From contig JAISGM010000002.1 in NCBI GenBank assembly GCA_031263085.1, positions 1-38,155 on the forward strand: a DNA stretch of 38,155 bases, given 5' to 3'. Positions 1,519 to 36,339 of this stretch are shown piece by piece. Every line of letters starts with the position of its first letter. The first letter of the stretch is position 1. This DNA comes from Coxiellaceae bacterium (GTDB lineage Bacteria > Pseudomonadota > Gammaproteobacteria > UBA9339). The notes under the pieces are model-generated. The model was not told the origin of the DNA and did not search any database. It worked only from the letters and a program-made list of their open reading frames with translations. A program made the position numbers and the translations under genes.

Positions 1519-4500
1519 TTAACTACAACCTGTTGTTTCTCCACAAGTTACACACTTCAGACATGCACCATTTCGTACCAAGGTAAATTGATGACAGTTA
1601 GAACACTGTTCTCCTACATAACCCTTAATTTTTGCGTTGGTGATTATATCGTTATGATATAGTTTTTGTTCAACAGGTGTTAAATTGGTTGAAATTAATT
1701 TTTCTGGATTAGAATTGAGAGATTGTTTATTACTTGTTTCTAGTAAATTTCCTGAATTAACATGAGCAAGATCATGACGATTTAAATATGCTATAGCCAA
1801 TTCTCTAAATACGTAATCTATCACGGAAGTAGCCATTTTAATGCGATTATTACCTTGAACAATACCACTAGGTTCAAATTTGGTAAAAACAAAAGCCTCA
1901 ACGAATTCTTCAAGAGGCACACCATATTGTAAACCCAAAGACACGGCGATCGCAAAACAATTCATCAAGGATCTAAATGCAGCTCCTTCACGGTGCATGT
2001 CTAAAAATATTTCACCTAATTCTCCATTTTCATATTCTCCAGTCCTTAAATAGATAGTATTGCCAACAATCTTAGCTTTCTGAGTATAACCACCACGACG
2101 ATTTGGTAAGCGATGTCTTTTTGCGAAATAACTATTTTTTTCTACCACATAAGATACATCGTTATTTAGATTTAATGATTCGAAAATAGTGTTGCTAAGC
2201 GCTTGGCTTAATTTTGAGTTATCACGATAAATAGCAATAGCTTTAATACCTAATTTCCACGAGAGTAAGTAAGCTTGTTTAATATCTTCAATTGTAGCTT
2301 CACAAGCCATATTAATAGTTTTTGAGATTGCACCACTAAGAAATGATTGAGCTGCTGCCATCATATAAATATGAGATTCATATGATAAGTAACGTTGGCC
2401 ATAACGTCCGCATTTATTGGCGCAATCAAAAACTGACAAATGTTCATCTAGAATATGTGGAGCTCCTTCAATGGTCATACTGCCACAAATATGCTTATTT
2501 GTTTCTTGAATTTGTGTGGTAGTAAATCCAAGTTCAATTAGAAGATTAAATCCTGGATTTAATAATTTCTTTTCATCTATTTTTAGTACAGATGTTAATG
2601 TTTCTTTACTGAAGATCAAATGATTGATAACAAGATTAATATCAAATGCTGATGGCAATAAGCTTTCTAATTTAGAAAGCATCTCGTTGGTAAAGCCTTT
2701 GGAGCGTAAGTTATCAGTATTAATGTACGGACATTCTTTGAAAGATCTAGTACCATTAAGATAAATAAGTATATCGTTGATTTGTTTGACATTATATCCT
2801 AATTTTTTAAGAGCAATAGGAACTGATTGATTAGTTATTTTAAAATAACCACCGCCAGCAAGTTTTTTGAATTTTACTAAAGCAAAATCAGGTTCAATTC
2901 CCGTTGTATCACAATCCATCAGAAGACCAATAGTTCCTGTGGGAGCGAGTACAGTATGCTGCGCGTTGCGATATCCATATTGATTGCCAAGTTCTATTGC
3001 CTGATCTGCAATTCGGCGTGCTTGATGTAGTAAATAATCTGGACAATAATTATGATCAATACATAAAGGTTTAATGTGTAATTCTTCAAAAACATTGTTA
3101 TGATCAAAAAGCGCTTGATAATGATTATGCACCACTTTTGACATAGCATAGCGATTACTACTATATTTAGTAAATGGACCATGTTCTTTTGCCATTTCTG
3201 CTGAAGTAGCAAGTGAGGTAAAATGCATAATTGCAGTAATAGCTCCGCAGATTGCAATACCTCTTTTAGAATCATAGGGAATTCCATTTCTCATTAAGTA
3301 TGCTCCTAAATTTGCATACCCTAGTCCCAGTGTTCGGAATTCGTAAGAAAGTTTAGCAATGGTGTAACTAGGAAATTGCGCCATAACAATGCTAATTTCT
3401 AAAGTTAGAGTCCAAAGACGAACTGCATGTTTAAATAAATCTACAGTTAATTCACCATTATTATTCATAAATTTAATTAAATTAAGCGAAGCTAGGTTAC
3501 AAGCCGTATCATCTAAAAAATTATATTCAGAACAAGGATTTGAGGCATTAATTCGTCCATTTTCAGGACAGGTGTGCCAATCATTAATAGTAGTATCAAA
3601 CTGTATTCCGGGATCAGCACAAGACCATGAAGCATAACTAATTTGATCAAATAAATTTCGCGCTTTTATAGTTTTACACGGTTTGGATTTTCTTTTTTCA
3701 TGCATAGCTTTTATAATTTCTGTCCTCCAATATAAATTCCAATCACCGTCATTTAATATTGCTTGCATAAACTCATTACTAGCTCGTACTGAATTATTGG
3801 AATTTTGTCCGGAAACAGTATTATAAGCATCACTTTGCCAATCAATATTAAATTCTGGAAAATTAATAGAGTGTTTTCCTTGCTTATAGAGTTCAATAGA
3901 TCGTAGAATGTAATTTAAAGGAATGTTAACGCACTGAGCGCTAATGATAGCTTGTTTCAAACTATCATTTTTTCTAGGATCAATACTATCTGCGAATGAT
4001 AATTTTGACTCTAAACAAGATTGAATAATTTTATTTAAGTGGTAATTATTTAGTTTCGAGCCAGTTGCTAAAGATGCTACTTTTTGTTCTTCTAATACTT
4101 TCCAAGCAATAAATTCTTCGATATCTGGATGATCTAAATCTAATACTACCATCTTGGCAGCTCTTCTGGTAGTACCACCAGATTTAATCGATCCTGCAGC
4201 ACGATCACCGATTTTCAAAAATGACATTAAACCAGAAGATTCACCGCCACCGCTTAAAGGCTCTCCTGATCCCCGTAATTTTGAAAAATTAGTCCCAGTA
4301 CCAGAGCCATATTTAAACAAGCGAGCCTCTTTTAACCACATATCCATGATACCATCAGCGCCTACTAGATCATCCTTAACAGATAGAATGAAGCAGGCGT
4401 GCGGCTGTGGTCTACTGTAAGCATCTGTAGATTTTTTTATTTCACCGGTATTATTATCAGCGTAATAATGTCCTTGTTCGGAACCAGTAATACCATATGC

Positions 4501-4989
4501 CCAATTTAATCCAGTATTAAACCACTGCGGGGAATTAGGTGCAGCCATTTGATTAAGCAACATAAATATCATTTCGTTATAGTAAGATTTTGCATCATCT
4601 TCAGAATTAAAGTAATTATGACGCCATCCCCAATAAGTCCATGTTCCCGCTAGACGATGACATACCTCTTTTATGCTTGTCTCTCCACGATATTGTTTAT
4701 CTGGAGGCAGTTTAGCTAATTCTCTATTATCTGCTTCAGAACGTTGTAACCAATTAGGTACATTATTTTCAGATACTTTTTTAATTTTGACTGGTATTCC
4801 GCTTCTACGAAAGTATTTCTGCGCAATAATATCAGTAGCCATCTGAGACCAAAATTCTGGAATTTCTAAATTATTAATATAGTAATTTTCAATGCTATCT
4901 TGATCTTTGATTTTAGATGAACGTTTTACAAATTTAATTGCTGTAAATGGATCATTATGTGAGCCAGTAAAAAGACGTTCTATTTTCAT
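1519..4989 (-). CDS. nrdJ: Adenosylcobalamin-dependent (class II) ribonucleotide reductase
   Basis: Reduces ribonucleotides to deoxyribonucleotides using a thiyl radical made from adenosylcobalamin, so it needs neither oxygen nor an iron subunit. The active-site set is visible: redox Cys-199 (PHACF), then [14 protein letters not shown] at 484-497, giving Asn-484, thiyl Cys-486, Glu-488 and partner Cys-497 with the family's 11-residue spacing. [17 protein letters not shown] and [17 protein letters not shown] are further family signatures. The C-terminus is a cysteine-rich zinc-ribbon tail (CSNC...CLKCVTCG...C) that shuttles electrons. At 1156 residues it is near the usual length of the large NrdJ form. 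ATG start with AGGAT upstream. It lies 149 bp after nusB with its own promoter region and NrdR boxes. No class I or III reductase is in the window, so dependence on B12 is possible but not shown. Confidence 0.97.
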
Positions 4990-5138: not shown

Positions 5139-5543
5139 CTAACGTAAATTATGTGCTATCTTGTCTAAGACGCCATTAATATATTTATATCCTTCGCTTG
5201 ATCCAAAAATTTTAGTTAACTCCAAAGCTTCATTAATAATGACTTTATACGGAACTTCCAATTGGTATTTTAATTCATAAGTTGCTAAACGTAATACCGC
5301 GAGTTCTACAAAATCTAATGCGTCTAATTTACGATCAAGATAAGGAGTTATAATTTCATCAATAATTTTTGCGTTGGTAATAATACCATTTAGTAAATTG
5401 TGAAAATACTTGCTATCGATTTTTTTGTTATTAAACTGTTTCTTGATATTATCTTCAGATTCGGTTGTCAATTGCCATTGATAAATTGCTTGGAGAGCTA
5501 AAGAACGAGTTTTACGACGAATACTTGGTTTAATTTTTTTCAT
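5139..5543 (-). CDS. nusB: Transcription antitermination factor NusB
   Basis: All-alpha RNA-binding protein that with NusE (ribosomal protein S10) binds boxA RNA and helps assemble the rRNA antitermination complex. At 134 residues it is normal length. Recognisable stretches are [18 protein letters not shown] at the N-terminus and the C-terminal bundle around [32 protein letters not shown] and [12 protein letters not shown]. The ATG at 5543 lies inside the end of nrdR (14-bp overlap), indicating translational coupling in a waaF-nrdR-nusB run. In many gammaproteobacteria nusB follows ribH, so the neighbourhood here is rearranged. Two likely partners, NusA and SuhB, are also in this window. Confidence 0.96.
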
Positions 5544-6021
5544 AAAAAATAGTTTGTTTTTTTGTTTGTCTAGTCCGCTGTAATTTTTTTATTTCAGTAT
5601 TGAAGGCCTCAACATCTTGGAAACTACGATAAATTGATGCAAACCTGACATAAGCAACCTGATCAATTTTTTTTAATTCTCCAATTACTATTTCACCAAT
5701 AACTTGTGAGGTAATCTCTCGTTCTCCAGTAGTATGTAGTTTGTGGATAATTCGTTGTATTGCTTCTTCGAATTGTTCAGTGCTTATTGGGCGTTTTTGC
5801 AATGCGTGTCTCATACCTTGTCGCAATTTCTCCTCATCAAAAGGTTGGCGTACTTGATTACGTTTGATTATTCGCGGCATAATAAGCTCTGCTACTTCGT
5901 ATGTAGTGAAGCGTTCATTACAAGAGGTACATTCACGTCTTCTTCGCACCTGTTTCCCTTCGCCAACTAAACGAGAATCAATTACCTTAGTATCACTTTT
6001 ACTGCAAAAAGGACAATACAT
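5530..6021 (-). CDS. nrdR: Ribonucleotide reductase transcriptional repressor NrdR
   Basis: Nucleotide-sensing repressor of ribonucleotide reductase genes; binds paired NrdR boxes when loaded with ATP/dATP. The N-terminal zinc ribbon has CPFC at residues 3-6 and CTSC at 31-34, with the basic DNA-contact segment RRRREC. The ATP-cone domain covers about 45-140 ([19 protein letters not shown] through [11 protein letters not shown]). At 163 residues it is slightly longer than usual, ending in a Lys/Gln/Arg-rich tail. The start ATG lies 2 bases after the waaF stop and the end overlaps nusB. Its likely target nrdJ is two genes downstream with a matching pair of boxes, so regulator and target are linked. 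Confidence 0.97.
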
Positions 6022-12494: not shown

Positions 12495-14204
12495 ATGCGT
12501 ACCTCAAATTTTTTACTTGCAACTTTACGCGAAAATCCTGCTGATGCTGAAATTGTTAGTCATCAATTAATGCTTAGATCCGGGATGATTAGGAAACTTT
12601 CTACTGGTATTTACACTTGGTTACCTCTTGGACTTATGGTATTGAAGAAAACAGAGAATATTATTCGCAGTGAAATGAATCGTATTGGCGCTATAGAGAT
12701 TTTGATGCCAACAATTCAGCCAGCAGAATTATGGAAAGAATCAGGACGATGGGACGATTTTGGAGACCAATTATTAAAAATTAAGGATCATAATCAACAC
12801 GATTTTTGTTTTGGCCCAACTCATGAAGAAATTGTTACCGATCTAATTAGGCGCGAGATTCGTAGCTACAAGCAGCTACCATTAATCGTTTATCAGATTC
12901 AAACTAAATTTAGAGATGAGATGCGTCCTCGTTTTGGTGTAATGCGAGGACGAGAATTTATCATGAAAGATGCTTATTCGTTTCATTTAAATGAAATATC
13001 GATGATTGAAACATATGATATTATGTATAGGGTTTATGAAAAGATTTTTTCGCGTCTTGGTTTGAAATTTTGTAGTGTGCTCGCTGATACCGGAAATATT
13101 GGAGGTAGTAAGTCGCATGAGTTTCAAGTTCTTGCTGATTCTGGAGAAGATCAAATAGTCTATAGTGATATGAGTAATTATGCAGCAAATATTGAGATGG
13201 CTACTTATTTAATTCAAACATCTACTAATATTCAAAAGCCTAACAATAAATTAGTGAAAGTCGTAACTCCAAAGGTAAAAACCATTGTTGAAGTAGCAAA
13301 ATTTTTAAAAGTTAGTATTAAACAAATTTTGAAGACTTTACTTGTTAAAGGGAAAGAAATTTCGTGCGTAGCTTTGGTGTTACGCGGTGATCATGAGCTT
13401 AATGAGATTAAAGCAAGTAAATTACCTGAGATTGCTCAACCCCTTACTTTTGTCGATCCGGAAAAATTTCGAGATATTTTGGGATGTAGCGTCGGTTTTA
13501 TTGGACCATTGGGTCTAAAATTTCCAATAATTGTTGACCATGATGCAGCTTTAGTTAACAATTTTATTTGTGGAGCAAATTCTGATGATGAGCATCTAAT
13601 TAACGTTAATTGGGGGCGAGATTTGCCGTTACCCAAAGTTGCTAATCTTCGTAAGGTAATCGATGGCGATTTAAGTCCTGATGGTAAAGGGAAATTAAAA
13701 TTCGCTCGTGGAATCGAGGTCGGACAAGTGTTTCAGCTAGGGCAAAAATATAGTAAAGCTATGCACGCTACAGTCTTAGATAATAATGGTCGTGCTATTC
13801 AAATGTTTATGGGTTGTTATGGTATCGGAGTAACACGTACCATTGCGGCCGCTATTGAGCAAAATCATGATGAGCGCGGAATTATTTGGCAAGAGGCGAT
13901 GGCTCCATTTCAAGTTGCTATTGTGCCTGTGGGATTATATAGATCTTATCTAGTACGTGAGTTTACTGATAAAATTTATCAAGAATTAATTAATCATGGT
14001 TTTGAAGTACTACTTGATGATAGAAGAGAGCGTCCAGGAGTTTTATTTGCAGATATGGATTTAATTGGAATTCCTCATAGAATTATTATCAATGAAGGTA
14101 GTTTAGATTCTGGAATGATAGAGTATAAGCATCGTGCTAATAATATTTCAGAAAATGTATGTATTGATAATTTGGTACTGTTTATCAGTAATAAAATTAA
14201 ATGA
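12495..14204 (+). CDS. proS: Prolyl-tRNA synthetase (bacterial type, with editing domain)
   Basis: Class II synthetase charging tRNA-Pro in the cytoplasm. The N-terminus (MRTSNFLLATLRENPADAE, then RKLSTGIYTWLPLG) is the bacterial ProS start. Motif 2 is at QIQTKFRDEMRPRFGVMRGREF (about 133-154). The inserted editing (INS) domain spans about 225-400, with SCVALVLRGDHELNE. Motif 3 is in CYGIGVTRTIAAAIEQ. The C-terminal anticodon-binding domain contains VLLDDRRERPGVLFADMDLIG. At 569 residues it matches the E. coli length. Upstream is tRNA-Arg; downstream suhB converges with 5 bp between stops. Confidence 0.98.
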   Translation: MRTSNFLLATLRENPADAEIVSHQLMLRSGMIRKLSTGIYTWLPLGLMVLKKTENIIRSEMNRIGAIEILMPTIQPAELWKESGRWDDFGDQLLKIKDHNQHDFCFGPTHEEIVTDLIRREIRSYKQLPLIVYQIQTKFRDEMRPRFGVMRGREFIMKDAYSFHLNEISMIETYDIMYRVYEKIFSRLGLKFCSVLADTGNIGGSKSHEFQVLADSGEDQIVYSDMSNYAANIEMATYLIQTSTNIQKPNNKLVKVVTPKVKTIVEVAKFLKVSIKQILKTLLVKGKEISCVALVLRGDHELNEIKASKLPEIAQPLTFVDPEKFRDILGCSVGFIGPLGLKFPIIVDHDAALVNNFICGANSDDEHLINVNWGRDLPLPKVANLRKVIDGDLSPDGKGKLKFARGIEVGQVFQLGQKYSKAMHATVLDNNGRAIQMFMGCYGIGVTRTIAAAIEQNHDERGIIWQEAMAPFQVAIVPVGLYRSYLVREFTDKIYQELINHGFEVLLDDRRERPGVLFADMDLIGIPHRIIINEGSLDSGMIEYKHRANNISENVCIDNLVLFISNKIK

Positions 14205-14209
14205 CAAAT

Positions 14210-14983
14210 TTAAAATCTGTTTTGTATTATTTGCAAAATAGATTTAGTGGCGCTTATGTTTCCGGCGATTATTTCTCCAGTAGTTAGATAGGAGTGATTA
14301 TTATTGAAGTCAGTAATAGTGCCTCCAGCTTCTTGAATTATTAGAATTCCTGCCGCCATATCCCATGGTGTAAGATTTAATCCAAACATACCATCAAGAC
14401 GACCACAAGCAACGTAAGCGAAATCAAGAGCAACTGAACCACCATAACGAATACAAGCTATTCGAGGAATAATTGACGTTAATATTTGTAAATAGTTTGT
14501 AGTGTTTTTGATGTCTTTGTTACCAAGATTCGAAGAAACAATCGCTTTAGGAAACTGTTTTTGTTGAGCTATTCTAATTCTACGTTCATTCAAAAAGGCT
14601 CCTGAACCGTTGGTTGCTATAAATAATTCATGACGCAGCGGATCGTAAATTACCCCGTGCTCTATTCTATTTTTGTATTGAATGCCGATAGAAATACAAA
14701 AATGTGGGTTGCCATGAATAAAATTAGTCATTCCATCTATTGGGTTAACAATCCATGTATAATTGTTGGTACTTTTATTTTCTCCAAAAATAGCATGAGT
14801 AGGGTATGATTCGTGAATAATTCTAATAATTTCTTGTTCTGCTTGTTGATTTATCACAGTAACAAAATCATTATCGCTTTTTTCTTCAACGTGAATCATA
14901 TCTAAACGATCTATAGCGTGCAAAATTATTTTGCTAGCACTACGGACTGCTTTTATAGCAATATTAATTAATGGGTGCTGCAT
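14210..14983 (-). CDS. suhB: SuhB-type inositol-monophosphatase-fold protein with degenerate active site
   Basis: In gammaproteobacteria SuhB is both an inositol monophosphatase and, independently of that activity, a Nus factor that binds NusA-AR2 in rRNA antitermination. The start MQHPLINIAIKAVRSASKII and the length (257) fit SuhB. The Asp of the third metal motif is kept (TPWDMAAG, Asp-208), as are GGSVALDFAYVACGRLDG and Glu-68. The others are altered: VT-x-x-D reads VTVIN (Asn-45), GEE reads GEN (Asn-69), and DPxDGTTNF reads NPIDGMTNF (Asn-80, Met-85). These correspond to human IMPA1 Asp-47, Glu-71, Asp-90 and Thr-95. I infer that phosphatase activity is lost or very weak and the Nus role kept. 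Its start overlaps the CDF gene by 16 bp in a sohB-CDF-suhB run. Confidence 0.93.
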   Translation of the reverse strand: MQHPLINIAIKAVRSASKIILHAIDRLDMIHVEEKSDNDFVTVINQQAEQEIIRIIHESYPTHAIFGENKSTNNYTWIVNPIDGMTNFIHGNPHFCISIGIQYKNRIEHGVIYDPLRHELFIATNGSGAFLNERRIRIAQQKQFPKAIVSSNLGNKDIKNTTNYLQILTSIIPRIACIRYGGSVALDFAYVACGRLDGMFGLNLTPWDMAAGILIIQEAGGTITDFNNNHSYLTTGEIIAGNISATKSILQIIQNRF

Positions 14984-15858
14984 ATATTTTCAGTGATTTG
15001 TTTTTGAGTTTCAATTTGAACTGTGGAATGAGTAATATTAAAGTTTTTTCTAATAACTGTACGCACATCATCAATAATTTGTTCCCAAGATGCATGTTTA
15101 TATACTACTATATGGACAGTTAATAGTACGATATTAGAGGTTATGGTCCAGATATGCAAATCATGAATATTATCTACTCCTACAATATTTTCAATTATTG
15201 ATTTTACTTGGTTGTAATCAATATGTTTGGGGGTGGTTTCCATTAGCACTAACCATAATTCTTTTAATAAACGTATGACGGCAGTTGTAATTAGAATACA
15301 AATAAACAACGAAATAATAGAATCAATAAACGTCCAATTAGTAAAATAAATTATAGTACCTGATATCAAAACCGCAATAGAACTAATAGCATCTCCTAAA
15401 ACATGTAAAAGAGCAGTATGTATATTTAAAGTCATCTCTCCTTGGCATAAAATCCAGGCAGTTATAATATTAATAATCAAACTGATGATTGCTATAATAA
15501 TCACAACTTCGCTGACAATATTAGATGGAGTATATAAGTGGTGAATAGCTTCGTTAGCGGTATTGATGGTAATCATTAGTAAGATAATACAACTTAACCA
15601 TGATACTAAAATTTCGATCCGACCAAAACCGTAAGTGTATTTTTTTGTTGCTCTTTTTTGTTTAAACCAAGAAGCGAATGCTGACAGAATCAGCGTCAAG
15701 GCGTCTATCCATGAATGTCCTGCATCACTTAATAGAGCAAGTGATCCTGATCGCTGACTAGCCAAAATTTCAACACAACCAAATAAAGCTATAAAAAGTG
15801 CTGCATACAACGCAGTATTTTTTGATAACAGGTGATAATGTTTGTGAGAACTGGTCAT
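14968..15858 (-). CDS. Cation diffusion facilitator (zinc-type metal/proton antiporter)
   Basis: Six-helix inner-membrane exporter that exchanges Zn2+ or a similar ion for protons. The intramembrane site is visible as H48-x3-D52 in SDAGHSWID (helix 2) and H152-x3-D156 in HVLGDAISS (helix 5). A His at both positions points to Zn/Cd rather than Mn or Fe. KKYTYGFGRIEIL is the conserved helix 2-3 linker. The C-terminal cytoplasmic domain (from about 210) has VDNIHDLHIWTI, the usual metal-sensing fold. The His-rich N-terminus of ZitB is reduced to a few residues (SSHKHYH). It starts 3 bases after the sohB stop and overlaps suhB, so it is coexpressed with both. The exact metal is inferred. Confidence 0.92.
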   Translation of the reverse strand: MTSSHKHYHLLSKNTALYAALFIALFGCVEILASQRSGSLALLSDAGHSWIDALTLILSAFASWFKQKRATKKYTYGFGRIEILVSWLSCIILLMITINTANEAIHHLYTPSNIVSEVVIIIAIISLIINIITAWILCQGEMTLNIHTALLHVLGDAISSIAVLISGTIIYFTNWTFIDSIISLFICILITTAVIRLLKELWLVLMETTPKHIDYNQVKSIIENIVGVDNIHDLHIWTITSNIVLLTVHIVVYKHASWEQIIDDVRTVIRKNFNITHSTVQIETQKQITENICSTH

Positions 15859-15861
15859 TAA

Positions 15862-16854
15862 TTATTGCTTTAATATTTTAGAGATATTGTTTTGAATAAA
15901 GAGACTGAAGCGTTCAGTCAAACTATTTCTAATAGTACACTTGACCTTAAAAATACGAGACTTTTTACTCCTATTCAATAAGTAATCATCACTAGTAATA
16001 ATATTATCTATTAGATTTAACTCTTTAGCTTTGGTACCATACCATATTTCTCCAGTAGCTATTTTTGATATATCAATGTTTGGTCGATTAAGCGAGACAA
16101 AATTCTTAAATAAAGTGTGAGCCTCCTCTACATCTTGTTGTGTTTTTTCTTTTCCTTCTCTGGTATTTTTAGCAAATAAAGATAAAGTACGTTTATACTT
16201 GCCAGCAACTAATTGCTCAAAATCAATCCCGTTCTTTTTTAAGAAACGATTAAAATTTGGTAATTGGGCAATTACCCCAATAGAGCCGATAATAGCAAAA
16301 GGAGCTGCAAAAATGCGATCTGCTACACAAGCCATCAGATAACCACCGCTAGCTGCTACTTTATCAATGACGACTGTTAGTGGAATTTTTCGATCTCGAA
16401 TTCGTTTTAATTGAGAAGCGGCTAAACCATAACCATGAATTATACCTCCAGAACTTTCAATCTTGATTAGTACTTCATCATCATGTGTAATTGTTGTTAA
16501 AATTGCTGTAATTTCTTTTCTGAGATTTTCTACAGCTGATGCTTTGGTGTCACCATTAAATTCTAAAACAAAAGTTCTTGATTTTAGGGAAGTATTTTTA
16601 CTCAATTTTTTTTGAGCGGCTTTAGTTTGTTGCTCTTTTTTTTGTAATTTTTTAAATTCACTTTTTATGAGTGTTTTTCGATTAAGTAATTCTTTTATTT
16701 CTTGATATTTCTTATTAAGGTTTGTTATTTCAATTCTTTCTTTATCTCTATTTTTTCCAGTAATAACGGCTATGCTACTGCAAGTAGCAATAATTGCTAT
16801 TACTATAGTTAAGCTTTGCGCTAAAAATAGTCCGTACTCTGATAGAAAATTCAT
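15862..16854 (-). CDS. sohB: Inner-membrane serine peptidase SohB (family S49)
   Basis: Signal-peptide-peptidase-like protease anchored by an N-terminal helix (about 8-32), with the catalytic domain in the periplasm. A charged, probably coiled linker (35-90) is followed by the S49 domain: IKIESSGGIIHGYGLAA, nucleophile Ser-169 in KVAASGGYLMACVAD, AIIGSIGV, and the general-base Lys in AGKYKRTLSLF (219-225). GEIWYGTKAKELNLID is the C-terminal family signature. At 330 residues it is near the E. coli length. The start is supported by GAGGAAT about 9 bases upstream. First gene of a tight sohB-CDF-suhB run on the minus strand. Confidence 0.95.
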   Translation of the reverse strand: MNFLSEYGLFLAQSLTIVIAIIATCSSIAVITGKNRDKERIEITNLNKKYQEIKELLNRKTLIKSEFKKLQKKEQQTKAAQKKLSKNTSLKSRTFVLEFNGDTKASAVENLRKEITAILTTITHDDEVLIKIESSGGIIHGYGLAASQLKRIRDRKIPLTVVIDKVAASGGYLMACVADRIFAAPFAIIGSIGVIAQLPNFNRFLKKNGIDFEQLVAGKYKRTLSLFAKNTREGKEKTQQDVEEAHTLFKNFVSLNRPNIDISKIATGEIWYGTKAKELNLIDNIITSDDYLLNRSKKSRIFKVKCTIRNSLTERFSLFIQNNISKILKQ

Positions 16855-21564: not shown

Positions 21565-22686
21565 TTATTCTTTGTTAATAATCTCGACTTTCTCTATGCT
21601 GTTAAATCTACTGGATATTTTTTTTGCGGATTTATTTGCATCTTCGGCATCAGCGTAAGCTTGTGATATATGTTTGGTAAGATTTTCCATTCTGTTTTGA
21701 AAACGTCCAAAATCTTTGCTAAGTGCTATCAAATGTTCTTGGATAATGTGAATCTGTTTGCGTGTGGCGGAGTCTTTAATGACTGCACGGGCAGTAGTTA
21801 AGATTGCCATTAAAGTAGTTGGCGATGCTAGCCATACTTTAGAACGATAAGAAAATTCTACCAATTCTGGATAATGACCATGGATTTCGGCAAAGATCGC
21901 TTCTGCTGGAATAAACATCATAGCTCCATCGGCGGTTTCTCCAGGTATAATATATTTTTCAGATATATCTTGAATATGTTTGCGGATATCTAGGCGAAAT
22001 TGTTGTTGTGCTACTTTTCTTTCTATTTCGCTTAAATATGGATTTGCTAGTTTCTGATAGCTTTCTAATGGAAATTTAGCATCAATTGGTATATTACCAG
22101 TTGGTTCTGGTAAAAATAAAATACAATCAACGCGTCTATTATTAGTTAATGTATGTTGGAGAGCAAAATTTTCTGTAGGTAAGATGTTGCGTAATAATGC
22201 TGATAATTGAAATTCCCCGAAAGCCCCTCTTGCTCTTTTATCAGTTAATATTTCTTGTAAATCAATTATGTTATCTGACAATTCAGTAATTTTCTTTTGA
22301 GCATTGTCTATTAAGGCCAATCGTTTAATTACATCAGTAAAAGTGGTAGCGGTTTTTTCAAAACCTTCTGATAGTCGTCTATCTACCTGATTAGTAATTT
22401 CTAATAGTTTTTTGTTTGTTGTCTCAGTTAATTTTTCAATTCTTTGATTGAGTTCCGAAGAATGATTATTAAGGGAGGTAGTAATTTGAATACGCGCATC
22501 ATTTAGGTTAGATTGTAAGCTCTCGGTAATAGTCCTAAAACTATCTAACAACAAGCGAACGATACTATCACGAAGATCGTTATCAAATCTATTTCTTTCC
22601 TTGGTAGGATTTTTATTGAAAACCAATAAGCCAACTATAATTAGAAAAAGCGTATTAATAAATATTACGATAATTATGTGATTCAT
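21565..22686 (-). CDS. rmuC: DNA recombination protein RmuC
   Basis: Membrane-anchored protein of the RmuC family, linked in E. coli to limiting inversions at short inverted repeats. An N-terminal helix (about 3-23) anchors it. Residues about 40-155 are a long coiled coil (repeated Leu/Ile heptads through LTETTNKKLLEITNQVDRRL). The conserved domain follows: RARGAFGEFQLSALLRNILP, RRVDCILFLPE, IPIDAKFPLE, ADGAMMFIPAEAIFAEI and VWLASPTTLMAILTTARAV. The core has the restriction-endonuclease-like D...DAK pattern. 373 residues, somewhat shorter than E. coli RmuC at the C-terminus. Divergent from wbpE with 66 bp between starts. Confidence 0.95.
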   Translation of the reverse strand: MNHIIIVIFINTLFLIIVGLLVFNKNPTKERNRFDNDLRDSIVRLLLDSFRTITESLQSNLNDARIQITTSLNNHSSELNQRIEKLTETTNKKLLEITNQVDRRLSEGFEKTATTFTDVIKRLALIDNAQKKITELSDNIIDLQEILTDKRARGAFGEFQLSALLRNILPTENFALQHTLTNNRRVDCILFLPEPTGNIPIDAKFPLESYQKLANPYLSEIERKVAQQQFRLDIRKHIQDISEKYIIPGETADGAMMFIPAEAIFAEIHGHYPELVEFSYRSKVWLASPTTLMAILTTARAVIKDSATRKQIHIIQEHLIALSKDFGRFQNRMENLTKHISQAYADAEDANKSAKKISSRFNSIEKVEIINKE

Positions 22687-22752
22687 TTACTAAATTCTAT
22701 CATAAGATTGTTTAGGTTGCTTTTAGATAATAATTGTGCCATATATAACTCC

Positions 22753-23853
22753 ATGTTATTTGTGGATTTAAATCGTCAGTATAAGAAAATCAGAAGCGGT
22801 ATTCATCGTAGAATTAGGCAAGTTTTGAATCATGGCTCGTATATTATGGGTCCTGAGATCAAGGAGCTAGAAGATAGATTGACTAATCTTATTGGAGTTA
22901 AGCACTGTATAGCGGTGTCTAGTGGTACTGACGCTTTATTAATTGCCATGATGGCTCTCGGTATAGGTAAGGGTGATGAAATAATTACTACGCCATTCAC
23001 ATTTATATCTACTGCAGAAACGATAGCTATTTTAGGAGCTATACCAGTATTTGTTGATATTGATTCTCGTACATATAATATTGATCCTGCAAAGATAGAA
23101 TCTGCGATTACTATAAAAACTAAGGCTATCATGGCGGTTTCCATTTTCGGCCAGTGTGCTGATTATGATTTAATTAATGCTATCGCGAAAAAATATAAAA
23201 TTTTGGTAATTGAGGATGGCGCTCAAAGTTTTGGTGCAATTTATAAAGGCAGGAATTCATGTAACCTTACTACTATTGGATGCACTAGTTTCTTTCCATC
23301 CAAACCTTTGGGTTGCTATGGGGATGGCGGCGCTTGTTTTACTAATGATGATTATTTGGCGAAATGTATGAGAGAAATTATGACGCATGGTCAAGACAAG
23401 AGATATCATCATGTCCGTCTAGGAGTTAACGGCAGGATGGATACCATGCAGGCAGCAATTTTATTGGTAAAATTAGAAATATTTTCAAACGAAATCAAGT
23501 TGCGCCAAAAAATAGGTGCACGATATACTGAACTATTAAAAGATAGCGTTATAACGCCTCACATTGAGTGTTTTAATACTAGTGTATATGCGCAATATAC
23601 CATACAGTTAAGTCACAGGAATAACATTATGGAAAAATTAAAGCAAGTTGGAATTCCTACAGCAGTGCATTATCCTATTCCTTTACATAAGCAGCCAATT
23701 TTTTCCTGTTATAATGATTATAATTTTCCAATTGCAGAAGCAGTATCCAATAAAGTTTTAAGTTTACCGATGTACCCATATTTAATGAAACAGGAAATAG
23801 ATTTTATCGCAAATGAAGTAATTACTAATTCAAAAAAAGGAGAAGTATTATGA
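22753..23853 (+). CDS. wbpE: UDP-3-keto-GlcNAcA aminotransferase (DegT/DnrJ/EryC1 family)
   Basis: PLP enzyme that aminates the C3 ketone of UDP-2-acetamido-3-keto glucuronic acid, giving UDP-GlcNAc(3NH2)A. MLFVDLNRQYKKI, NHGSYIMGPEIKELE, SSGTDALLIAMMALG and TTPFTFISTAETIA closely follow the WbpE/WlbC pattern. The PLP lysine is Lys-184 in FFPSKPLGCYGDGGA; Asp-155 in VIEDGAQSFGA holds the pyridine nitrogen. The frame is open from 22678, but that start would overlap rmuC and add a non-homologous leader, so I use ATG 22753 (no clear ribosome site). The stop overlaps the wbpB start by 4 bp. First gene of the polysaccharide operon. Confidence 0.93.
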   Translation: MLFVDLNRQYKKIRSGIHRRIRQVLNHGSYIMGPEIKELEDRLTNLIGVKHCIAVSSGTDALLIAMMALGIGKGDEIITTPFTFISTAETIAILGAIPVFVDIDSRTYNIDPAKIESAITIKTKAIMAVSIFGQCADYDLINAIAKKYKILVIEDGAQSFGAIYKGRNSCNLTTIGCTSFFPSKPLGCYGDGGACFTNDDYLAKCMREIMTHGQDKRYHHVRLGVNGRMDTMQAAILLVKLEIFSNEIKLRQKIGARYTELLKDSVITPHIECFNTSVYAQYTIQLSHRNNIMEKLKQVGIPTAVHYPIPLHKQPIFSCYNDYNFPIAEAVSNKVLSLPMYPYLMKQEIDFIANEVITNSKKGEVL

Positions 23854-24923
23854 ACAACAATAAACAAAAAACACCTTGCATTATAAAAGATAGAAAGATC
23901 AAGATTGCCTTAGCTGGATGCGGAAGAATTGCTTATAATCACTTTGAAGCAATAGCTAAACATCATGAAAATCTAGTTTTGGAAGGAGTGTGCGATATGA
24001 ATCAGGAAGCTCTTAAAAAAGCCACGGAGATTACTGGAAGTAAGGGATATCGTTATTTAGAAGAATTATTAGAAAATTCAGACGCTGATATAATAAGTCT
24101 TTGTACTCCTAGTGGTTTACATGCTTCCCAAGTTTGTCGAATTGCTAATGCTGGTAGACATATAATAACAGAGAAACCTATGGCAACACGTTGGCAAGAT
24201 GGATTGACCATGGTAAAAGCATGTGATGAGGCGGGAGTGAAATTGTTTGTAGTTAAACAAAATCGCATGAACGCCACCCTGAGATTATTGAAACGTGCAA
24301 TAGATAATTGTCGTTTTGGTCGTATATATCTAGTTAATATTAATGTGTTGTGGTCACGTCCACAAAGTTATTATGATGGAGCTGATTGGCGTGGAACTTG
24401 GGAATTCGACGGTGGTGTTTTGATGAATCAAGCTAGTCATTATATTGATTTATTGAATTGGCTATTTGGTCCCGTAGAGTCAATACAGGCTATGACTGCA
24501 ACTCTAGCACGCAATATTCAAACTGAAGATACTGGAGTACTTAATGTTAAATGGCGTTCTGGAACTTTAGGATCAGTTAATGTTACAACCTTGGTTGATA
24601 AGCAAAATTTTGAAGGTTCGGTTACTATTATAGGAGAGAAGGGTACGGTACGTATTGGTGGTATAGCAGTTAACGAAATTCAGCATTGGGAGTTCAGGGA
24701 TAAATTACCAGAAGATATCGATGTTCAGAAAGTAAATTATAATACTACTTCGGTTTATGGGTTTGGGCATTTCAGATATTATGAAAATATAGTAGAAGTA
24801 TTACGCGGAAATGCTAAACCAGAAACCGATGGAAGAGAAGGTTTAAAATCTCTGGAGATTTTAATTGCTACTTATCTTTCAGCGCGTGATGGATGCAAGA
24901 TATCTTTACCTCTTGAATATTAA
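23850..24923 (+). CDS. wbpB: UDP-GlcNAcA 3-dehydrogenase (Gfo/Idh/MocA family)
   Basis: NAD-dependent oxidation of UDP-GlcNAcA at C3, supplying the substrate of WbpE; in the family the two act as a coupled pair. Rossmann motif [11 protein letters not shown] (21-31), EKPMAT with the catalytic Lys-109, then the WbpB/WlbA-specific run [38 protein letters not shown] and [40 protein letters not shown] closes the domain. 357 residues, normal. The ATG overlaps the wbpE stop (ATGA) with AAAGGAG upstream, so translation is coupled. UDP-GlcNAc 6-dehydrogenase (WbpA), needed for the substrate, is not in this window. Confidence 0.94.
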
Positions 24924-24927
24924 TTTC

Positions 24928-25509
24928 ATGAATTATATTAAGCATGAAACTGCAATAATTGATTGTGGCGCTAAAATTGGCAATAACACTCGTGTTTGGC
25001 ATTGGACCCATATTTGTTCAGGAGCTAAAATAGGAAATGAGTGCTCTATAGGACAAAATGTTTTTATAGGGAATAAAGTTGTTATTGGGAATAATGTTAA
25101 AATTCAAAATAATGTTTCGGTTTATGATAATGTTATTTTAGAAGATGATGTTTTTTGTGGTCCCAGTATAGTTTTTACTAACGTTTATAATCCCAGATCT
25201 GCTATTTCTCGCAAAGATCAATATCGCGATACAATAGTAAGGACCGGAGCTACTTTAGGAGCTAATTGTACTATTGTATGTGGAGTAACTATTGGTAAAT
25301 ACGCCTTTATTGGTGCTGGAGCTGTCATAAATAAAGATGTTTTGGATTATGCATTAATGGTAGGAGTGCCAGCTAAGCAAATTGGTTGGATGAGTGAATA
25401 TGGAGAACGTCTAGTTCTTCCATTGTATGGAAGTGGTGATGAATTTGAATGTCAGAATACTAATGTTAGATACAAAATTGTCGATAATAAATGCATTAAG
25501 TTAGTTTAG
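24928..25509 (+). CDS. wbpD: UDP-GlcNAc(3NH2)A 3-N-acetyltransferase (left-handed beta-helix)
   Basis: Acetyl-CoA-dependent acetylation of the C3 amino group, giving UDP-GlcNAc(3NAc)A. The hexapeptide-repeat helix runs almost throughout ([33 protein letters not shown]), with the WbpD/WlbB segment [17 protein letters not shown], and a C-terminal [16 protein letters not shown] typical of the family. The frame is open from 24865, but the ATG at 24928, just after the wbpB stop, gives the family N-terminus ([12 protein letters not shown]). 193 residues. With wbpE and wbpB it completes three consecutive pathway steps in one operon. Conversion to the manno form would need WbpI, absent here. Confidence 0.93.
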
Positions 25510-25526
25510 CGCATATAGGTTTAACA

Positions 25527-26549
25527 ATGACATATATAGTTTTTACGTTTGTATCTTGCTTAGTATCGATAATATCTGTGATTGGTGGATTTTTTTATCC
25601 AAAATTAGCTATTAGATGTAGTGCTATTGCAGTACCTAATACCAGAAGTTTGCATGTAAAAATTACCCCAAGAGGAGGAGGTATTATTATTGCAATAAGT
25701 ACACTTCTGGGTTTACTGGTATTAAGTATTTTTCAGATAATTAATTTTTATCAATATTTACCCATTTTGATAGGCGGGGTGATTGTATCTGTTATAGGTT
25801 TTGCTGATGATTGTTTTGAGTTATCTGCAAAATTACGTCTCTTGATGCAATTTGGTATTGCTACAGGATTATGTATTTTGTTCGCTGGAAAAGATACTCT
25901 AAATGTTGGTTTTGTTATTGTTACCATTGGATGGTTTAAATTTCCTTTAACTATATTTTTGTTATGCTGGTTTTACAATTTGTTTAATTTTATCGATGGT
26001 TCAGATGGAATGGCATCTTCTGCGGTTGTATATATTACTATATTATTTTCAATCATGGCATTTATTGAGCATCAGCCGACATCATTATTAATAATGATGT
26101 TATTGGGATCAGCAACTATTAGTTTTTTAATATTTAATTGGCCGCCAGCAAAAATTTTTTTAGGAGATGCCGGAACAAATTTCTGCGCTTATATGATATC
26201 TATAGTCGCAATGCTTAATATTTGGCAAGATGGTTTTAATGTATGGGTTTGGGTTAATGCTCTTGGTTTTTATATATCTGATACGACATTTACAACTTTA
26301 ATACGTATTGTTAAATTTCCTAGAACTTGGTATCAGCCGCATCGTAGTCATGCTTATCAGAACTTGGTATATTCTTTCGGCCATCTGAAAGTATTACTAT
26401 TAGTGTGGATATTTAATCTGTTATGGTTTTTACCGTTTGCTCTATTAGCTTATTTCTTTCCAAGATATAGTTTGTTATTTTTTGTAATTTCTTATGGGGT
26501 AATTTCCCCTTTTATTTTAAAGTATGGACCGTTGTTTAAAATGAGTTAA
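25527..26549 (+). CDS. wbpL: Initiating sugar-1-phosphate transferase to undecaprenyl phosphate (WecA/WbpL family)
   Basis: Polytopic inner-membrane enzyme of the MraY/WecA superfamily that starts O-antigen assembly by moving an N-acetyl-sugar phosphate from UDP to undecaprenyl phosphate. About ten helices. Family sites are PNTRSLHVKITPRGGG (loop 1), IGFADDCFELSAKLRL, the Mg2+ motif NLFNFIDGSDGMA, the catalytic FLGDAGTNF, and the basic cytoplasmic HRSHAYQNL (sugar recognition). The overall pattern is closer to WbpL than to WecA or MraY. 340 residues. It follows wbpD by 17 bp in the same operon. Donor sugar unknown; UDP-FucNAc, UDP-QuiNAc or UDP-GlcNAc are the usual choices. Confidence 0.92.
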   Translation: MTYIVFTFVSCLVSIISVIGGFFYPKLAIRCSAIAVPNTRSLHVKITPRGGGIIIAISTLLGLLVLSIFQIINFYQYLPILIGGVIVSVIGFADDCFELSAKLRLLMQFGIATGLCILFAGKDTLNVGFVIVTIGWFKFPLTIFLLCWFYNLFNFIDGSDGMASSAVVYITILFSIMAFIEHQPTSLLIMMLLGSATISFLIFNWPPAKIFLGDAGTNFCAYMISIVAMLNIWQDGFNVWVWVNALGFYISDTTFTTLIRIVKFPRTWYQPHRSHAYQNLVYSFGHLKVLLLVWIFNLLWFLPFALLAYFFPRYSLLFFVISYGVISPFILKYGPLFKMS

Positions 26550-26556
26550 ATGATAA

Positions 26557-27534
26557 ATGAAAATTTCAAAGCCATTAGGTATAGCTATTTGGGGATTAGG
26601 TAGTCATGTATGGAAGAATATTTTACCAGCTATATCAGCTTCTGATGTAGTTGAATTAGTGGGAGTTCATACAAGAAATACTACAAAAGCAGAACGAGTG
26701 ATTAGTAATTTTGGTGGTAAATTTTGGTCAACTACTGAACATATGCTGAGTGATCCTTTGGTGGACATTGTTTATGTTGCAACTCCAACTGGATTACATT
26801 TTGAGCATGGTATGATGGTATTAGGGGCTAATAAAAATCTCTTATGTGAAAAATCATTAACACATGATTCTAGTAAATCTTTGTGTCTAATTAATTGTGC
26901 TAAATCAAAAGATTTAATTATACTTGAGGCTTTCATGTATCTATATCATCCTCAATTTTTAACTGCATTAAATATTGTAACTAATCCTGATTTTGGAAAA
27001 ATATTACACATATCAAGTAATTTCGGTATTCCTAGAATACCTAAATCTAGTTTTAGGACATCAAAAAAACTTGGTGGTGGAGCATTTTTGGATGTTGGTT
27101 GTTATCCTATATCTATTGCTGTATCTTTGGTTCAGAAATTACCTAAAGTGCTACAATTCATAAAAACTAAAGATATAATGGATGATATTGATATTTCAGG
27201 GGTGGCAACTCTATTTTTCCCTTCTAATATTACTGCTCATCTTGGATGGGGGTATTATCGTGCTTATCGTGCTGAATTAATGGTATGGGGAGAAAAACAA
27301 TCCTTTTATGTGAATTATATTTTTTCGAAGCCAGATACTTATGAATCTCAAGTATTATTAAGCGATAAATATGGTAATATTGTCCCGATCATAATAAATC
27401 CTGCTAACAGTTTCGTTGAAATGTTTAAAGTTCTTAAGCTATCATTTACTTCAGAAAATGAGAGAAAACGCCTTTGGAATCTTGCTACATTGCAGGCAAA
27501 AACAATGGGACTATTCCAAGATGATAGATTATAG
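26557..27534 (+). CDS. Second Gfo/Idh/MocA oxidoreductase, probable NDP-sugar ketoreductase
   Basis: NAD(P)-dependent reductase of the glucose-fructose oxidoreductase family. Rossmann motif IAIWGLGSHVWKNILPA (about 9-25), cofactor/catalytic CEKSLT (the usual EKP carries Ser for Pro), and the signature ILEAFMYLYHPQF. LGGGAFLDVGCYPISIAV is the conserved C-terminal domain entry. Enzymes with this EAFMYxxHPQ pattern include deoxysugar 3-ketoreductases and trans-dihydrodiol dehydrogenase-like proteins. It is distinct from wbpB. It sits 7 bp after wbpL and overlaps the next gene by 14 bp. Context suggests reduction of a keto-sugar nucleotide, possibly after the WbpM dehydratase; this is inferred. 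Confidence 0.85.
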   Translation: MKISKPLGIAIWGLGSHVWKNILPAISASDVVELVGVHTRNTTKAERVISNFGGKFWSTTEHMLSDPLVDIVYVATPTGLHFEHGMMVLGANKNLLCEKSLTHDSSKSLCLINCAKSKDLIILEAFMYLYHPQFLTALNIVTNPDFGKILHISSNFGIPRIPKSSFRTSKKLGGGAFLDVGCYPISIAVSLVQKLPKVLQFIKTKDIMDDIDISGVATLFFPSNITAHLGWGYYRAYRAELMVWGEKQSFYVNYIFSKPDTYESQVLLSDKYGNIVPIIINPANSFVEMFKVLKLSFTSENERKRLWNLATLQAKTMGLFQDDRL

Positions 27535-28177
27535 AAATAATCAAGTAAAACATATTTTACGTATGGTATCTAATGGTCTGCATGTTATAGATCCTAGTAG
27601 GATTGACGTTCGTGGAAATTTAGAATTTGGTAATAACGTTTTTATTGATATTAATGTTATCTTTATTGGTGTTGTGATTTTAGGAAATAATGTAAAAATT
27701 GGGCCAGGATGCATTATAAATAATACCGTTATTCACGAGAACACGTATGTAAAAGAATATTCCGGAATAGAGGGATCAATGATAGGGAAAAAATGTATTA
27801 TTGGTCCATATGCAAGAATTAGACCATCTTCTAATATAGGGGATATTTCACAAATTGGTAATTTCGTTGAAATTAAGGATTCCATTATAGGAAGTAATTG
27901 TAAAATTAATCATCATAGCTTTATTGGTAATGCTATTATAGGAGCAGATGCGATAATTGGTGCAGGATGTATTACTTGTAATTTTGATGGACAAAAAGCA
28001 GTTCAAACAATCATCGGCAATAAGGCTTATATTGGCGCTGGAGTACAATTGGTGGCACCTATTAATATAGGTGAAAATTCTACTATAGGAGCAGGATCAG
28101 TAATAACAGAAGATGTAGTTGAATATTCTAAGGTATTAGCAAGATCTAGACAGGTTACAATTAAGCAAAGGAATTAA
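27521..28177 (+). CDS. Free-standing GlmU C-terminal-type acetyltransferase (left-handed beta-helix)
   Basis: Aligns by eye with the acetyltransferase half of GlmU over its whole length: IDVRGNLEFGNNVFIDINV, then IIGPYARIRPSS, QIGNFVEIKDSIIGS, KINHHSFIGNAIIG (the His matches the GlmU catalytic histidine), IIGAGCITCNFDGQ and LVAPINIGENSTIGAGSVIT. The uridylyltransferase domain (LxxGxGTRM) is absent; upstream sequence is the end of the reductase gene in another frame. ATG 27521 keeps the GlmU linker helix before the beta-helix; the frame is open further upstream but within the reductase gene. 218 residues. It is probably an N-acetyl- or acyltransferase acting on an amino sugar of this pathway, opposite the PIG-L deacetylase encoded next door. 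It ends 4 bp inside that convergent gene. Confidence 0.87.
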   Translation: MIDYRNNQVKHILRMVSNGLHVIDPSRIDVRGNLEFGNNVFIDINVIFIGVVILGNNVKIGPGCIINNTVIHENTYVKEYSGIEGSMIGKKCIIGPYARIRPSSNIGDISQIGNFVEIKDSIIGSNCKINHHSFIGNAIIGADAIIGAGCITCNFDGQKAVQTIIGNKAYIGAGVQLVAPINIGENSTIGAGSVITEDVVEYSKVLARSRQVTIKQRN

Positions 28178-28845
28178 GAGCATTTCCTTATAATCTGAAA
28201 GGCCTCTCCATATGCAAAGCCTGCTTGAGTCCCCCTGAATTTACTAAGAGCAATTATCGCTTCAATCGAGCGTGGATTAGGAAAGGGAGAAATTTGTGAT
28301 TGATAACACTCTAGAGATGCAATCTTTACATCTATGTATCCCGTTATATCTATAATCCAATTGGGTACGAAATTAGATTCTATATGCGGTGCATTCCAAT
28401 GAGTTTCCGACAAAGTTTCGTAAGCGGCAATCATATCAATAAATTTGCCTTTTTTAATTGGCCTTGTTGCTACCATAGCGCTTTCAAAGACTATCCGATG
28501 ATCTATATGTCTATCTGGATATGGGCAGAATACTATATTTGGTTCTATTTCATAAACAATATCACATATTTTAGCATTAAATTGATATGTAGGTATCTCT
28601 TTCAAAGTTGTTGCAGGAAAATCTAAAAAGATAGATCTTTTAATATTGGCTTTTTTATGCGCTAACTTGGATTCTTTAACAGTTTGTTGATAAATATCTT
28701 CTGAATATAAAGGTGGTCTATGTCCAGCAATCGTGAGTACGGTAACATCGTATCCAATCGCAGCATATTTAGCTGCACTTCCACCAACACCAAGAATTTC
28801 ATCATCAGGATGGGGCGCAATGATAAGTATTTTCTTTTTCATCAT
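28174..28845 (-). CDS. PIG-L/LmbE-family zinc N-deacetylase
   Basis: Zn-dependent removal of an N-acetyl (or similar) group from a sugar. The family motif APHPDDEILGVGG (His-12, Asp-15) and the third metal ligand region DRHIDHR (His pair near 115-118) are intact, so it should be active. 223 residues, single domain, no signal or membrane segment, so it works in the cytoplasm on a nucleotide sugar or lipid-linked sugar. Last gene of the minus-strand set cupin-methyltransferase-PIG-L, 15 bp after the methyltransferase, and convergent with the GlmU-like gene (4-bp overlap of ends). A deacetylase beside an acetyltransferase suggests exchange of the N-acyl group; the substrate is unknown. Confidence 0.9.
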   Translation of the reverse strand: MMKKKILIIAPHPDDEILGVGGSAAKYAAIGYDVTVLTIAGHRPPLYSEDIYQQTVKESKLAHKKANIKRSIFLDFPATTLKEIPTYQFNAKICDIVYEIEPNIVFCPYPDRHIDHRIVFESAMVATRPIKKGKFIDMIAAYETLSETHWNAPHIESNFVPNWIIDITGYIDVKIASLECYQSQISPFPNPRSIEAIIALSKFRGTQAGFAYGEAFQIIRKCS

Positions 28846-28860
28846 AAACTTAAATCAATA

Positions 28861-30123: not shown

Positions 30124-30553
30124 CAATTAAGGTAACTCTTACAACATCATTCTCATAGCTTTCTTGGTCACGAAGATTTCTACTAATTGCTAGTAGAGAA
30201 GTATCCTCCAGAAATACTGTAGTATGATCTTCCATAGGTGGTGTAAAAATTAAATCACCTTGTTTAACAAAAATCTCCATTGGAGATAGATTGCTGCCTG
30301 TTGGTCGATGATAGTATTTTATTTTTCCAGAAAGTATGTACATGTAGTGCCAATCAGTTTTATGATAATGATTGGAGCGCACACTTCCTTTTTTAGAAGT
30401 AATTAAAGTTACATTTTTTACCGGAAGATTTACTATACCTTGAATACTACCACGCTTATCTATATGCGGTGTGGATAGTGAAACTAGGGTACTTTTAGGC
30501 CATAATTTCTTTTCATCAAGCTCCATAACTTTCCAATTAAGTTCATTAGACAT
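30104..30553 (-). CDS. Cupin-domain protein of a sugar-modification operon
   Basis: Single cupin barrel of 149 residues. Motif 1 lies around HYHKTDWHYMYILSGKIKY (metal-binding His candidates), motif 2 in GDLIFTPPMEDHTTVF. It opens with DKRGSIQGIVN, a pattern shared with dTDP-sugar isomerase/epimerase-like cupins, and ends EDTSLLAISRNLRDQESYENDVVRV. It heads the minus-strand operon with the C-methyltransferase and PIG-L deacetylase. It is probably an isomerase or epimerase on a keto-sugar nucleotide, or a metal-dependent helper enzyme. The reaction cannot be read from sequence. The start ATG follows GAGATATAGATT. Confidence 0.8.
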   Translation of the reverse strand: MSNELNWKVMELDEKKLWPKSTLVSLSTPHIDKRGSIQGIVNLPVKNVTLITSKKGSVRSNHYHKTDWHYMYILSGKIKYYHRPTGSNLSPMEIFVKQGDLIFTPPMEDHTTVFLEDTSLLAISRNLRDQESYENDVVRVTLIDDKNIP

Positions 30554-30621
30554 AATCTATATCTCGCTATGTATGGTAATTAATAATAAAATAAAGTATA
30601 AAGATACCTATCTATTTAGTC

Positions 30622-30627: not shown

Positions 30628-30636
30628 CTTTTTATT

Positions 30637-34766: not shown

Positions 34767-36254
34767 TTATTCAAACCATGGTTTACGTGCCACCATAATT
34801 AACTTTGCCGCATCTTCTTGATTTAGTTCTTTAATACTATCCAAATCGTCTGTAGCCTGTTCAGCTAAATCCTCTCTAGTAATTATCCCTTTACTAGCTA
34901 ACACATAGGCTAAATGTCTCGTCATTCCTTCTAATTCTAGTAAATCTTGAGCCGGCTCTACCGCACCAGCATCGCTAGTTCCAGATAAAACTAACTCTAA
35001 AAGAGAATCACGTGCGCGATTGCGCAATGTCTCTGCAAGATCTTTGTCAAATCCTTCGATGGATAATAGTTCTTCAAGAGGGGCATAAGCCACGTCCTCA
35101 AGAGTTCTAAATCCTTCTTGTACTAAAATATTTGCCAAATCATTGTCAACAGCTAAATTTTCGATAAATATCGAACCTACATTTTTTTCTTCAGTTTTGC
35201 TTTTGCGTTCCGCTTCTTCAACGCCAATAACATTTAACTTCCAACCTGATAATTCGCTAGCTAATTTGACATTTTGACCATTACGTCCAATAGCAAGCGC
35301 TAATTGATCTTCGCGCACAGCTATATCCATAGCCTTTTTGTCTTCGTCAACCACAATAGAGACAATTTCAGCAGGAGACATGGCATTTACTACTAATTGT
35401 GCCGGATCATCATCCCATAAAATCACATCAATTCGTTCCCCGCTTAATTCATTAGAAACATTTTGCACTCGTGAGCCACGAATACCAATACAGGCGCCAA
35501 TAGGATCGATACGACCATCATTAGTTTTTACCGCTATTTTAGATCGTAATCCATGATCCCTGGCTACAGCTTTAATATTAATTATACCTTCAATGATTTC
35601 TGGAACTTCTAATTTAAATAATTCAATAAGCATCTTAGGTACGGTTCTGCTCATAACTAACAATGGCCCTTTGGAAGAATCACTGCGGACATTGACTAGT
35701 ATGCCTCGTATTCTATCATGTAAACGCAGAGCTTCTTTTGGTAGCATACCATCTCGCAAAATTATGGCTTCTACGCCACTACCCATATCTAAAATGACAT
35801 TATCACGATTAACTTTTTTAACTACTCCCATCATCAAAGTATCAACTAATTTCATATAACGTTTAATAATGTCTTCTCTTTCGGCATTACGAATCTCTCT
35901 CATAATAACTTGTTTAGCAAGCTGTGCCGATATGCGACCAAACTCAACAGATTCGATCGATTCTTCAATAATATCTCCAATCTCAATTTCCTTATTAAGT
36001 TTAAGCGCTTGAGTGAGAGTTATCTGTTTTTCCGGAAATTCTAAATTATCATTATCATTTAATACCGTCCAACAACGAGAAGTTTCGTAGTCTCCAGTTT
36101 TGCGATTAATAACAACCTTAATGTTAACTTCCTCTAGATAACGTTTTGCAGTAACAGCTTCTAAAGCTCGCTCAATCGCGTTAAAGATCACCTCTTTTCC
36201 CATATCTTTTTCATTAGATACCGAATCTACAACTAATAATATTTCCTTGTTCAC
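34767..36254 (-). CDS. nusA: Transcription termination/antitermination factor NusA
   Basis: RNA-polymerase-associated factor controlling pausing, termination and antitermination. In order: N-terminal RNAP-binding domain (1-125), S1 domain (about 132-200), KH1-KH2 (200-345; [19 protein letters not shown], then [19 protein letters not shown]), and two acidic repeats AR1 (about 360-425) and AR2 (about 430-495) typical of gammaproteobacteria. GTG 36254 gives [16 protein letters not shown], nearly the E. coli start, and has AAGGTG at good spacing; a GTG three codons upstream lacks this. 495 residues. rimP, normally just upstream, is not here. AR2 is the SuhB contact in E. coli. Confidence 0.97.
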
Positions 36255-36339
36255 GTCTTTCACCTTAGCGATCTGAAGTTAATTTACTTCTTAGGTTTGT
36301 TAATCCAATATATCAATCATTAATTTTTATATTACCGCA

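Follow-up and report, generated by a model that had tools for sequence, protein, structure and literature searches.

The suhB gene of the window, by which we mean the whole 38,155-nucleotide stretch of DNA analysed here, encodes an inositol-monophosphatase-fold protein whose catalytic residues have been lost, and the sequence evidence makes it likely that this protein is a maintained pseudoenzyme, kept as a Nus/rRNA factor. With somewhat less confidence, we favor the broader view that phosphatase-dead SuhB forms a recurrent, selection-maintained class in Gammaproteobacteria, present in at least seven lineages and acting as a dedicated factor for rRNA transcription and assembly, and that genomes without SuhB can drop the AR2 domain of NusA too.

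The window is an entire contig (G000:C5) of a six-contig, 427 kb assembly that is approximately 70% complete, with a genomic G+C content of roughly 32%. Since the genomes of same-genus relatives are 1.0-1.9 Mb in size, that of the window is probably reduced, and its source bacterium is symbiont-like in character. A surface-polysaccharide gene cluster has been retained at 22678-32484 despite the small genome; it encodes a DegT aminotransferase, two MocA-type oxidoreductases, hexapeptide transferases, a glycosyltransferase 4, a PIG-L deacetylase, a C-methyltransferase and a 4,6-dehydratase. The window also encodes a vitamin B12-dependent class II ribonucleotide reductase (1519-4989), with the gene for the NrdR repressor close by (5530-6021).

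Identity of the window SuhB and state of its catalytic site

The suhB gene (14210..14983, minus strand) reads as one uninterrupted frame of 257 codons, with an ATG start and a terminal stop. Over its full length the product matches Pfam Inositol_P (PF00459) with 197 bits, the cut-off being 27, and among the NCBIfam models the SuhB equivalog PRK10757 fits it best. The equivalog cut-off of 332 bits is not reached by the window protein (243 bits), nor is it reached by the catalytically intact sister L003 (269 bits), so that this cut-off is uninformative in the order concerned. The top PDB matches of an AlphaFold2 model (pLDDT 81) are the P. aeruginosa SuhB and the E. coli SuhB-NusA AR2 complex. 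The protein clusters with the same-genus SuhBs on a quick tree, each relative has a single SuhB orthologue, and the gene order proS/suhB/CDF/sohB is common to the window and the sister genome G010. In the window suhB closes a compact gene set that starts with the sohB protease gene (15862..16854, minus strand; NCBIfam PRK11778 above cut-off) and continues with a CDF cation-efflux transporter gene (14968..15858, minus strand; Pfam Cation_efflux and ZT_dimer), which is directly upstream of suhB and overlaps it by 16 bases. The set is convergent with proS (12495..14204, plus strand; NCBIfam proline--tRNA ligase), which adjoins suhB in G010 too and which we used both as an orthology anchor and as a selection control. 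In a protein scan of named genomes the window SuhB query returned no matches, while an intact sister SuhB query returned ten named loci.

The four substitutions that an earlier note had reported in this gene are all present, and their codons were confirmed by comparison with four same-genus relatives. On the minus strand, Asn-45 (AAT, 14849..14851) stands in place of E. coli Asp44 and IMPA1 Asp47, a position encoded by GAY in the relatives and occupied by Asp in 97 of 97 intact reference SuhBs; Asn-69 (AAT, 14777..14779) in place of Glu68 and Glu71 (GAR in the relatives); Asn-80 (AAC, 14744..14746) in place of Asp84 and Asp90 (GAY); and Met-85 (ATG, 14729..14731) in place of Thr89 and Thr95 (ACN). 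The site of Asn-45 is the one concerned with water activation. The metal ligands of the inositol monophosphatase family are E70, D90, D93 and D220, the second of which is the Asn-80 site, and residue h_95, the site of Met-85, makes a phosphate contact (PMC2080633). The earlier note had missed an in-frame deletion of three codons straight after Asn-69, in the metal-binding loop, where the relatives have SGx, as well as the retention of Glu-68, Asp-83 and Trp207-Asp208 (IMPA1 E70, D93 and W219-D220). At the level of motifs, VTxxD, GEE and DPxDGT are broken and WD is intact. Taken together, these residues strongly argue that the window SuhB has lost its phosphatase activity.

The four window codons differ from those of the relatives by at least six nucleotide changes, and these changes, along with the clean 9-base deletion, rule out sequencing error. 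Whether the substitutions are shared by close relatives was a question raised by the earlier note, and they are not: the four same-genus relatives are catalytically intact, and the changes are unique to the window genome within its genus and derived on the window's own lineage. The loss in the window could thus have happened more recently than its branch arose, and it is chiefly the other lineages that attest to the persistence of dead SuhBs. A separate change is common to the whole genus, all five members (L002-L006) having Gly in place of the inositol-contacting Glu (E. coli E205, IMPA1 E213), even where the catalytic residues are intact; substrate recognition may therefore have been weakened in the genus ahead of the loss of catalysis.

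The changes are concentrated at the catalytic site. An alignment of 97 intact SuhBs from across Gammaproteobacteria provides 36 columns with a conservation of 95% or more. Nine of these are catalytic, and the window SuhB is changed at four of the nine, whereas it is unchanged at all 27 of the others (Fisher p=0.0021). This contrast should be read with the reference set having been selected as intact, which leaves most catalytic columns fixed at 100%. With a threshold of 90% the figures are 4 of 7 catalytic and 3 of 52 other columns (p=0.0024), and p values under other thresholds run from 0.0006 to 0.011. Among the columns invariant in seven family relatives there are ten changes in the window SuhB, eight of which fall within active-site segments. 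Outside these segments the erosion of SuhB is no greater than that of proS and nusA, and with these two controls a loss of catalytic residues throughout the genome is rejected as an explanation.

Selection acting on the window gene

A codon model was applied to five same-genus sequences, with the window branch set against the background. The omega values for the window branch and the background were 0.14 and 0.083 for suhB, 0.089 and 0.063 for proS, and 0.065 and 0.038 for nusA, corresponding to rises of 1.7-fold, 1.4-fold and 1.7-fold, respectively. The similar rise in proS and nusA means that the increase is genome-wide and that suhB is not in obvious decay. Because dS on the window branch is about 1 and thus near saturation, the omega of suhB is an approximate value; its profile interval extends from about 0.075 to 0.28 (approximate 95%), and omega=1 is rejected (2dlnL 15.4). 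A pseudogene would be recognized by a broken frame or an omega near 1, whereas the window gene has an intact frame along with its omega of 0.14. The estimate is a branch average and is also compatible with a recent onset of decay at the tip. Within the limits set by a saturated dS, these codon data show that the rest of the window SuhB is under purifying selection.

Nus partners and catalytic loss in other lineages

Two partners of SuhB are encoded inside the window, as the earlier note had claimed. The nusA gene (34767..36263, minus strand; NCBIfam NusA and nusA_Cterm_rpt) has both AR1 and AR2 by alignment to the C-terminus of E. coli NusA, and nusB (5139..5543, minus strand) was recognized by Pfam NusB with 114 bits. 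The window SuhB has equivalents of the AR2-contact residues K251 and L254 (TKSIL), the double mutation of which in E. coli makes the affinity for AR2 approximately 1500-fold lower (PMC6614801). Since roughly half of intact SuhBs lack K251, its retention carries little weight. At four positions that do not vary among family relatives, the AR2 of the window NusA is substituted (S/D, D/S, E/K and K/Q); these positions lie near the AR2 C-terminal helices, in or near the SuhB-facing region. In the E. coli complex the recruitment of SuhB is RNA-dependent rather than AR2-dependent, and AR2 has a second partner in the polymerase alpha subunit (PMC6614801). On the RNA side, a 16S model detected rRNA genes in none of 11 genomes of the order, and a search of the order for boxA gave no match in the roughly 70% complete assembly of the window genome; the exact boxA matches in relatives fall within sequence that seems to be unrelated. 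A second PF00459 protein, the inositol-monophosphatase paralogue that the earlier note had suggested looking for, was not found in that same partial assembly.

SuhB-like proteins were detected in 363 of the 369 genomes of the class that were surveyed. Sequences from about 110 genomes, with low scorers and small genomes deliberately included, were inspected, and a SuhB was called dead when it lacked three or more of the six core residues. The phosphatase site is conserved in nearly every SuhB sequence sampled, and the high-scoring SuhBs are all intact. Dead SuhBs are present in the window genome (G000) and in G005, G269, G261, G291, G033 and G151/G358, which amounts to at least six lineages besides the window. 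G005 is from the same order as the window and a different genus, and family-mates of G269 and G261 (G158 and G356, respectively) have an intact SuhB. The tree behind these counts is a quick tree, on which the dead label requires seven changes by parsimony, and well-supported branches make four of these unavoidable. In two other sequences, L058 (G182) and L134 (G234), SuhB has a single metal-ligand change of Asp212 to Asn or Glu, and these are possible early stages of the same catalytic loss.

SuhB is still the top NCBIfam match for the six dead copies tested. The dead suhB genes of G005, G261, G291, G033 and G151/G358 adjoin trmJ, secF or isc genes, and secDF/suhB/trmJ/isc is the typical suhB neighborhood in the class. 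That the wrong paralogue had been picked up is ruled out by this locus, which also holds most of the copies in f142, the family of G151/G358, and by the separate position of the CysQ-like proteins of relatives (L013 and L014). Small genome size as the sole cause is likewise ruled out, as many genomes of 0.9-2 Mb have an intact SuhB. We found no description of natural SuhB pseudoenzymes in the literature searched, the scope of which excluded most subscription journals.

The family f142 comprises 25 Gammaproteobacteria genomes of about 0.7-1.2 Mb, and a search of it recovered 19 SuhBs (L177-L195), located beside secF, trmJ or iscR, none of which retains Asp84 or Thr89. In their low G+C and their size of about 1 Mb these genomes are reminiscent of marine SAR86. 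Comparisons between pairs of species that both have a dead SuhB gave omega values of 0.03-0.07, including pairs with an unsaturated dS of 0.13-0.66, and these values are comparable to those of trmJ and secF. The top PDB matches of an f142 SuhB structure model are again SuhBs. In g220, a genus of f142, the SuhB C-terminus is shortened, which leaves the retention of the AR2 contact doubtful. Two of the f142 homologues at the conserved locus, L195 and L184, are unrecognized by Pfam or below its cut-off and would probably carry the annotation 'hypothetical protein'. The f142 SuhBs resemble that of the window in having lost catalytic residues while the gene, mostly at secDF/suhB/trmJ/isc, is kept under purifying selection; however, they are older and more deeply diverged, and several are near or below Pfam detection, whereas the window protein is otherwise very close to an intact SuhB.

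Two f19 family genomes of 300-400 kb, G177 and G284, have no detectable SuhB, and in both (L172 and L174) NusA stops just after AR1 and AR2 is missing; the nusA copy of G284 has an internal stop as well. Another f19 genome, G028, gave no NusA match at all. A coupled loss of SuhB and its docking domain on NusA is suggestive only, because G073 and G338, which are 85% and 94% complete, keep AR2 and have no SuhB match, and because AR2 has another partner. Calls of SuhB absence in tiny genomes are provisional in any case, since G263 was without SuhB by profile search and a family-specific query then recovered a dead SuhB. The NusA proteins L170 (G016) and L176 (G139) are without the conserved C-terminal AR-x-x-W-F motif, and the only PF00459 match in each of these genomes looks CysQ-like or fragmentary.

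Proposed role, alternative explanations and significance

The earlier note concluded that selection has kept only the transcription role of SuhB. The parts of this claim that can be read from the genome stood, namely the loss of catalytic ligands with the rest conserved and purifying selection on the window's own branch, together with the single PF00459 protein, the retained AR2, NusB, K251 and L254, and the recurrence of the loss under strong constraint; the exclusive transcription role itself we would put as likely. The protein has kept the IMPase fold but no longer has the metal and water ligands that correspond to IMPA1 Asp47, Glu71, Asp90 and Thr95, nor some of the metal-binding loop, and the comparison of sequences shows that this loss postdates the split from the nearest sampled relative. 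According to the proposal, what keeps the protein would be the known non-catalytic role of SuhB, in which it docks on NusA AR2 and on the leader signal of the rRNA and joins NusB/NusE in aiding RNA polymerase in the transcription and folding of rRNA. The Nus role is proposed because of the work on E. coli, the retention of K251/L254, AR2 and NusB, and the occurrence of the same loss elsewhere.

One alternative is that suhB is an early pseudogene, whose function has just been lost in a shrinking genome and whose active-site changes are the first neutral hits. The confinement of the changes to the window genome within its genus would fit this explanation, as would an assembly that, even at about 70% completeness, is much smaller than the genomes of its relatives, and an omega that is somewhat raised. 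We nevertheless consider it improbable in view of the intact frame, the lack of any change at the 27 other conserved columns and an omega that rejects neutrality and whose rise equals that of proS and nusA; moreover, the analogous dead SuhBs of f142 are strongly constrained and have lasted from one species to another. It also seems doubtful to us that SuhB is kept for some non-catalytic role besides the Nus role, for example binding RNA polymerase directly, acting in assembly or as an RNA chaperone, or binding a small molecule without hydrolyzing it, as AR2 of NusA is kept in all the dead-SuhB genomes tested and the literature searched yielded no further widely conserved non-catalytic role for SuhB. 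Such a role would nonetheless accommodate the AR2-contact residues not being kept in the dead SuhBs of G269, G261 and G033, the shortened C-terminus in g220, the local changes in AR2 of the window NusA and the dependence of E. coli SuhB recruitment on RNA instead of AR2 (PMC6614801).

The retention of Glu68, Asp83 and Asp208, which leaves a single metal-ligand side chain out of four missing, could be taken to mean that the window SuhB is still a phosphatase, with an altered use of metal or an altered substrate. This is very unlikely, however, because Asp90, the Asp47/Thr95 pair, Glu71 and part of the loop have been lost together, and the replacements occur in none of the 97 intact homologues, a set that was chosen as intact. 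Mutations of the metal ligands in M. tuberculosis SuhB also led to a dramatic fall in activity (PMC2080633).

Among known systems the window SuhB is close to the E. coli protein, an inositol-1-monophosphatase and Nus factor (PDB 2qfl, 6ib7, 6ib8 and 6tqn), with which it shares the fold (TM-score 0.85-0.91 to the E. coli chains), the orthologous family, K251/L254, and NusA AR2 and NusB in the genome. Unlike the E. coli protein, which is an active phosphatase, it is without D44, E68, D84, T89 and three loop residues. By analogy it may be compared with the IMPase-defective SuhB mutants of E. coli, which are without the growth defect of suhB loss and thus keep the growth-related function when catalysis is lost (Chen and Roberts 2000; Wang et al. 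2007, cited in PMC4807359 and PMC6614801). Those mutants were engineered, whereas the window SuhB has lost several catalytic residues naturally and its form has been maintained.

The consequences of these observations reach beyond the single window genome. SuhB is a textbook two-function protein, and E. coli can do without the phosphatase activity. Since this activity is nevertheless conserved in almost all of the sequences sampled, whether catalysis or substrate binding has a part in the Nus role is a question, and the repeated natural loss of catalysis under selection offers a direct answer to it from multiple lineages. The dead SuhBs would be ready-made separation-of-function reagents, and SuhB together with NusA AR2 would provide an evolutionary test for the antitermination complex in reduced genomes.
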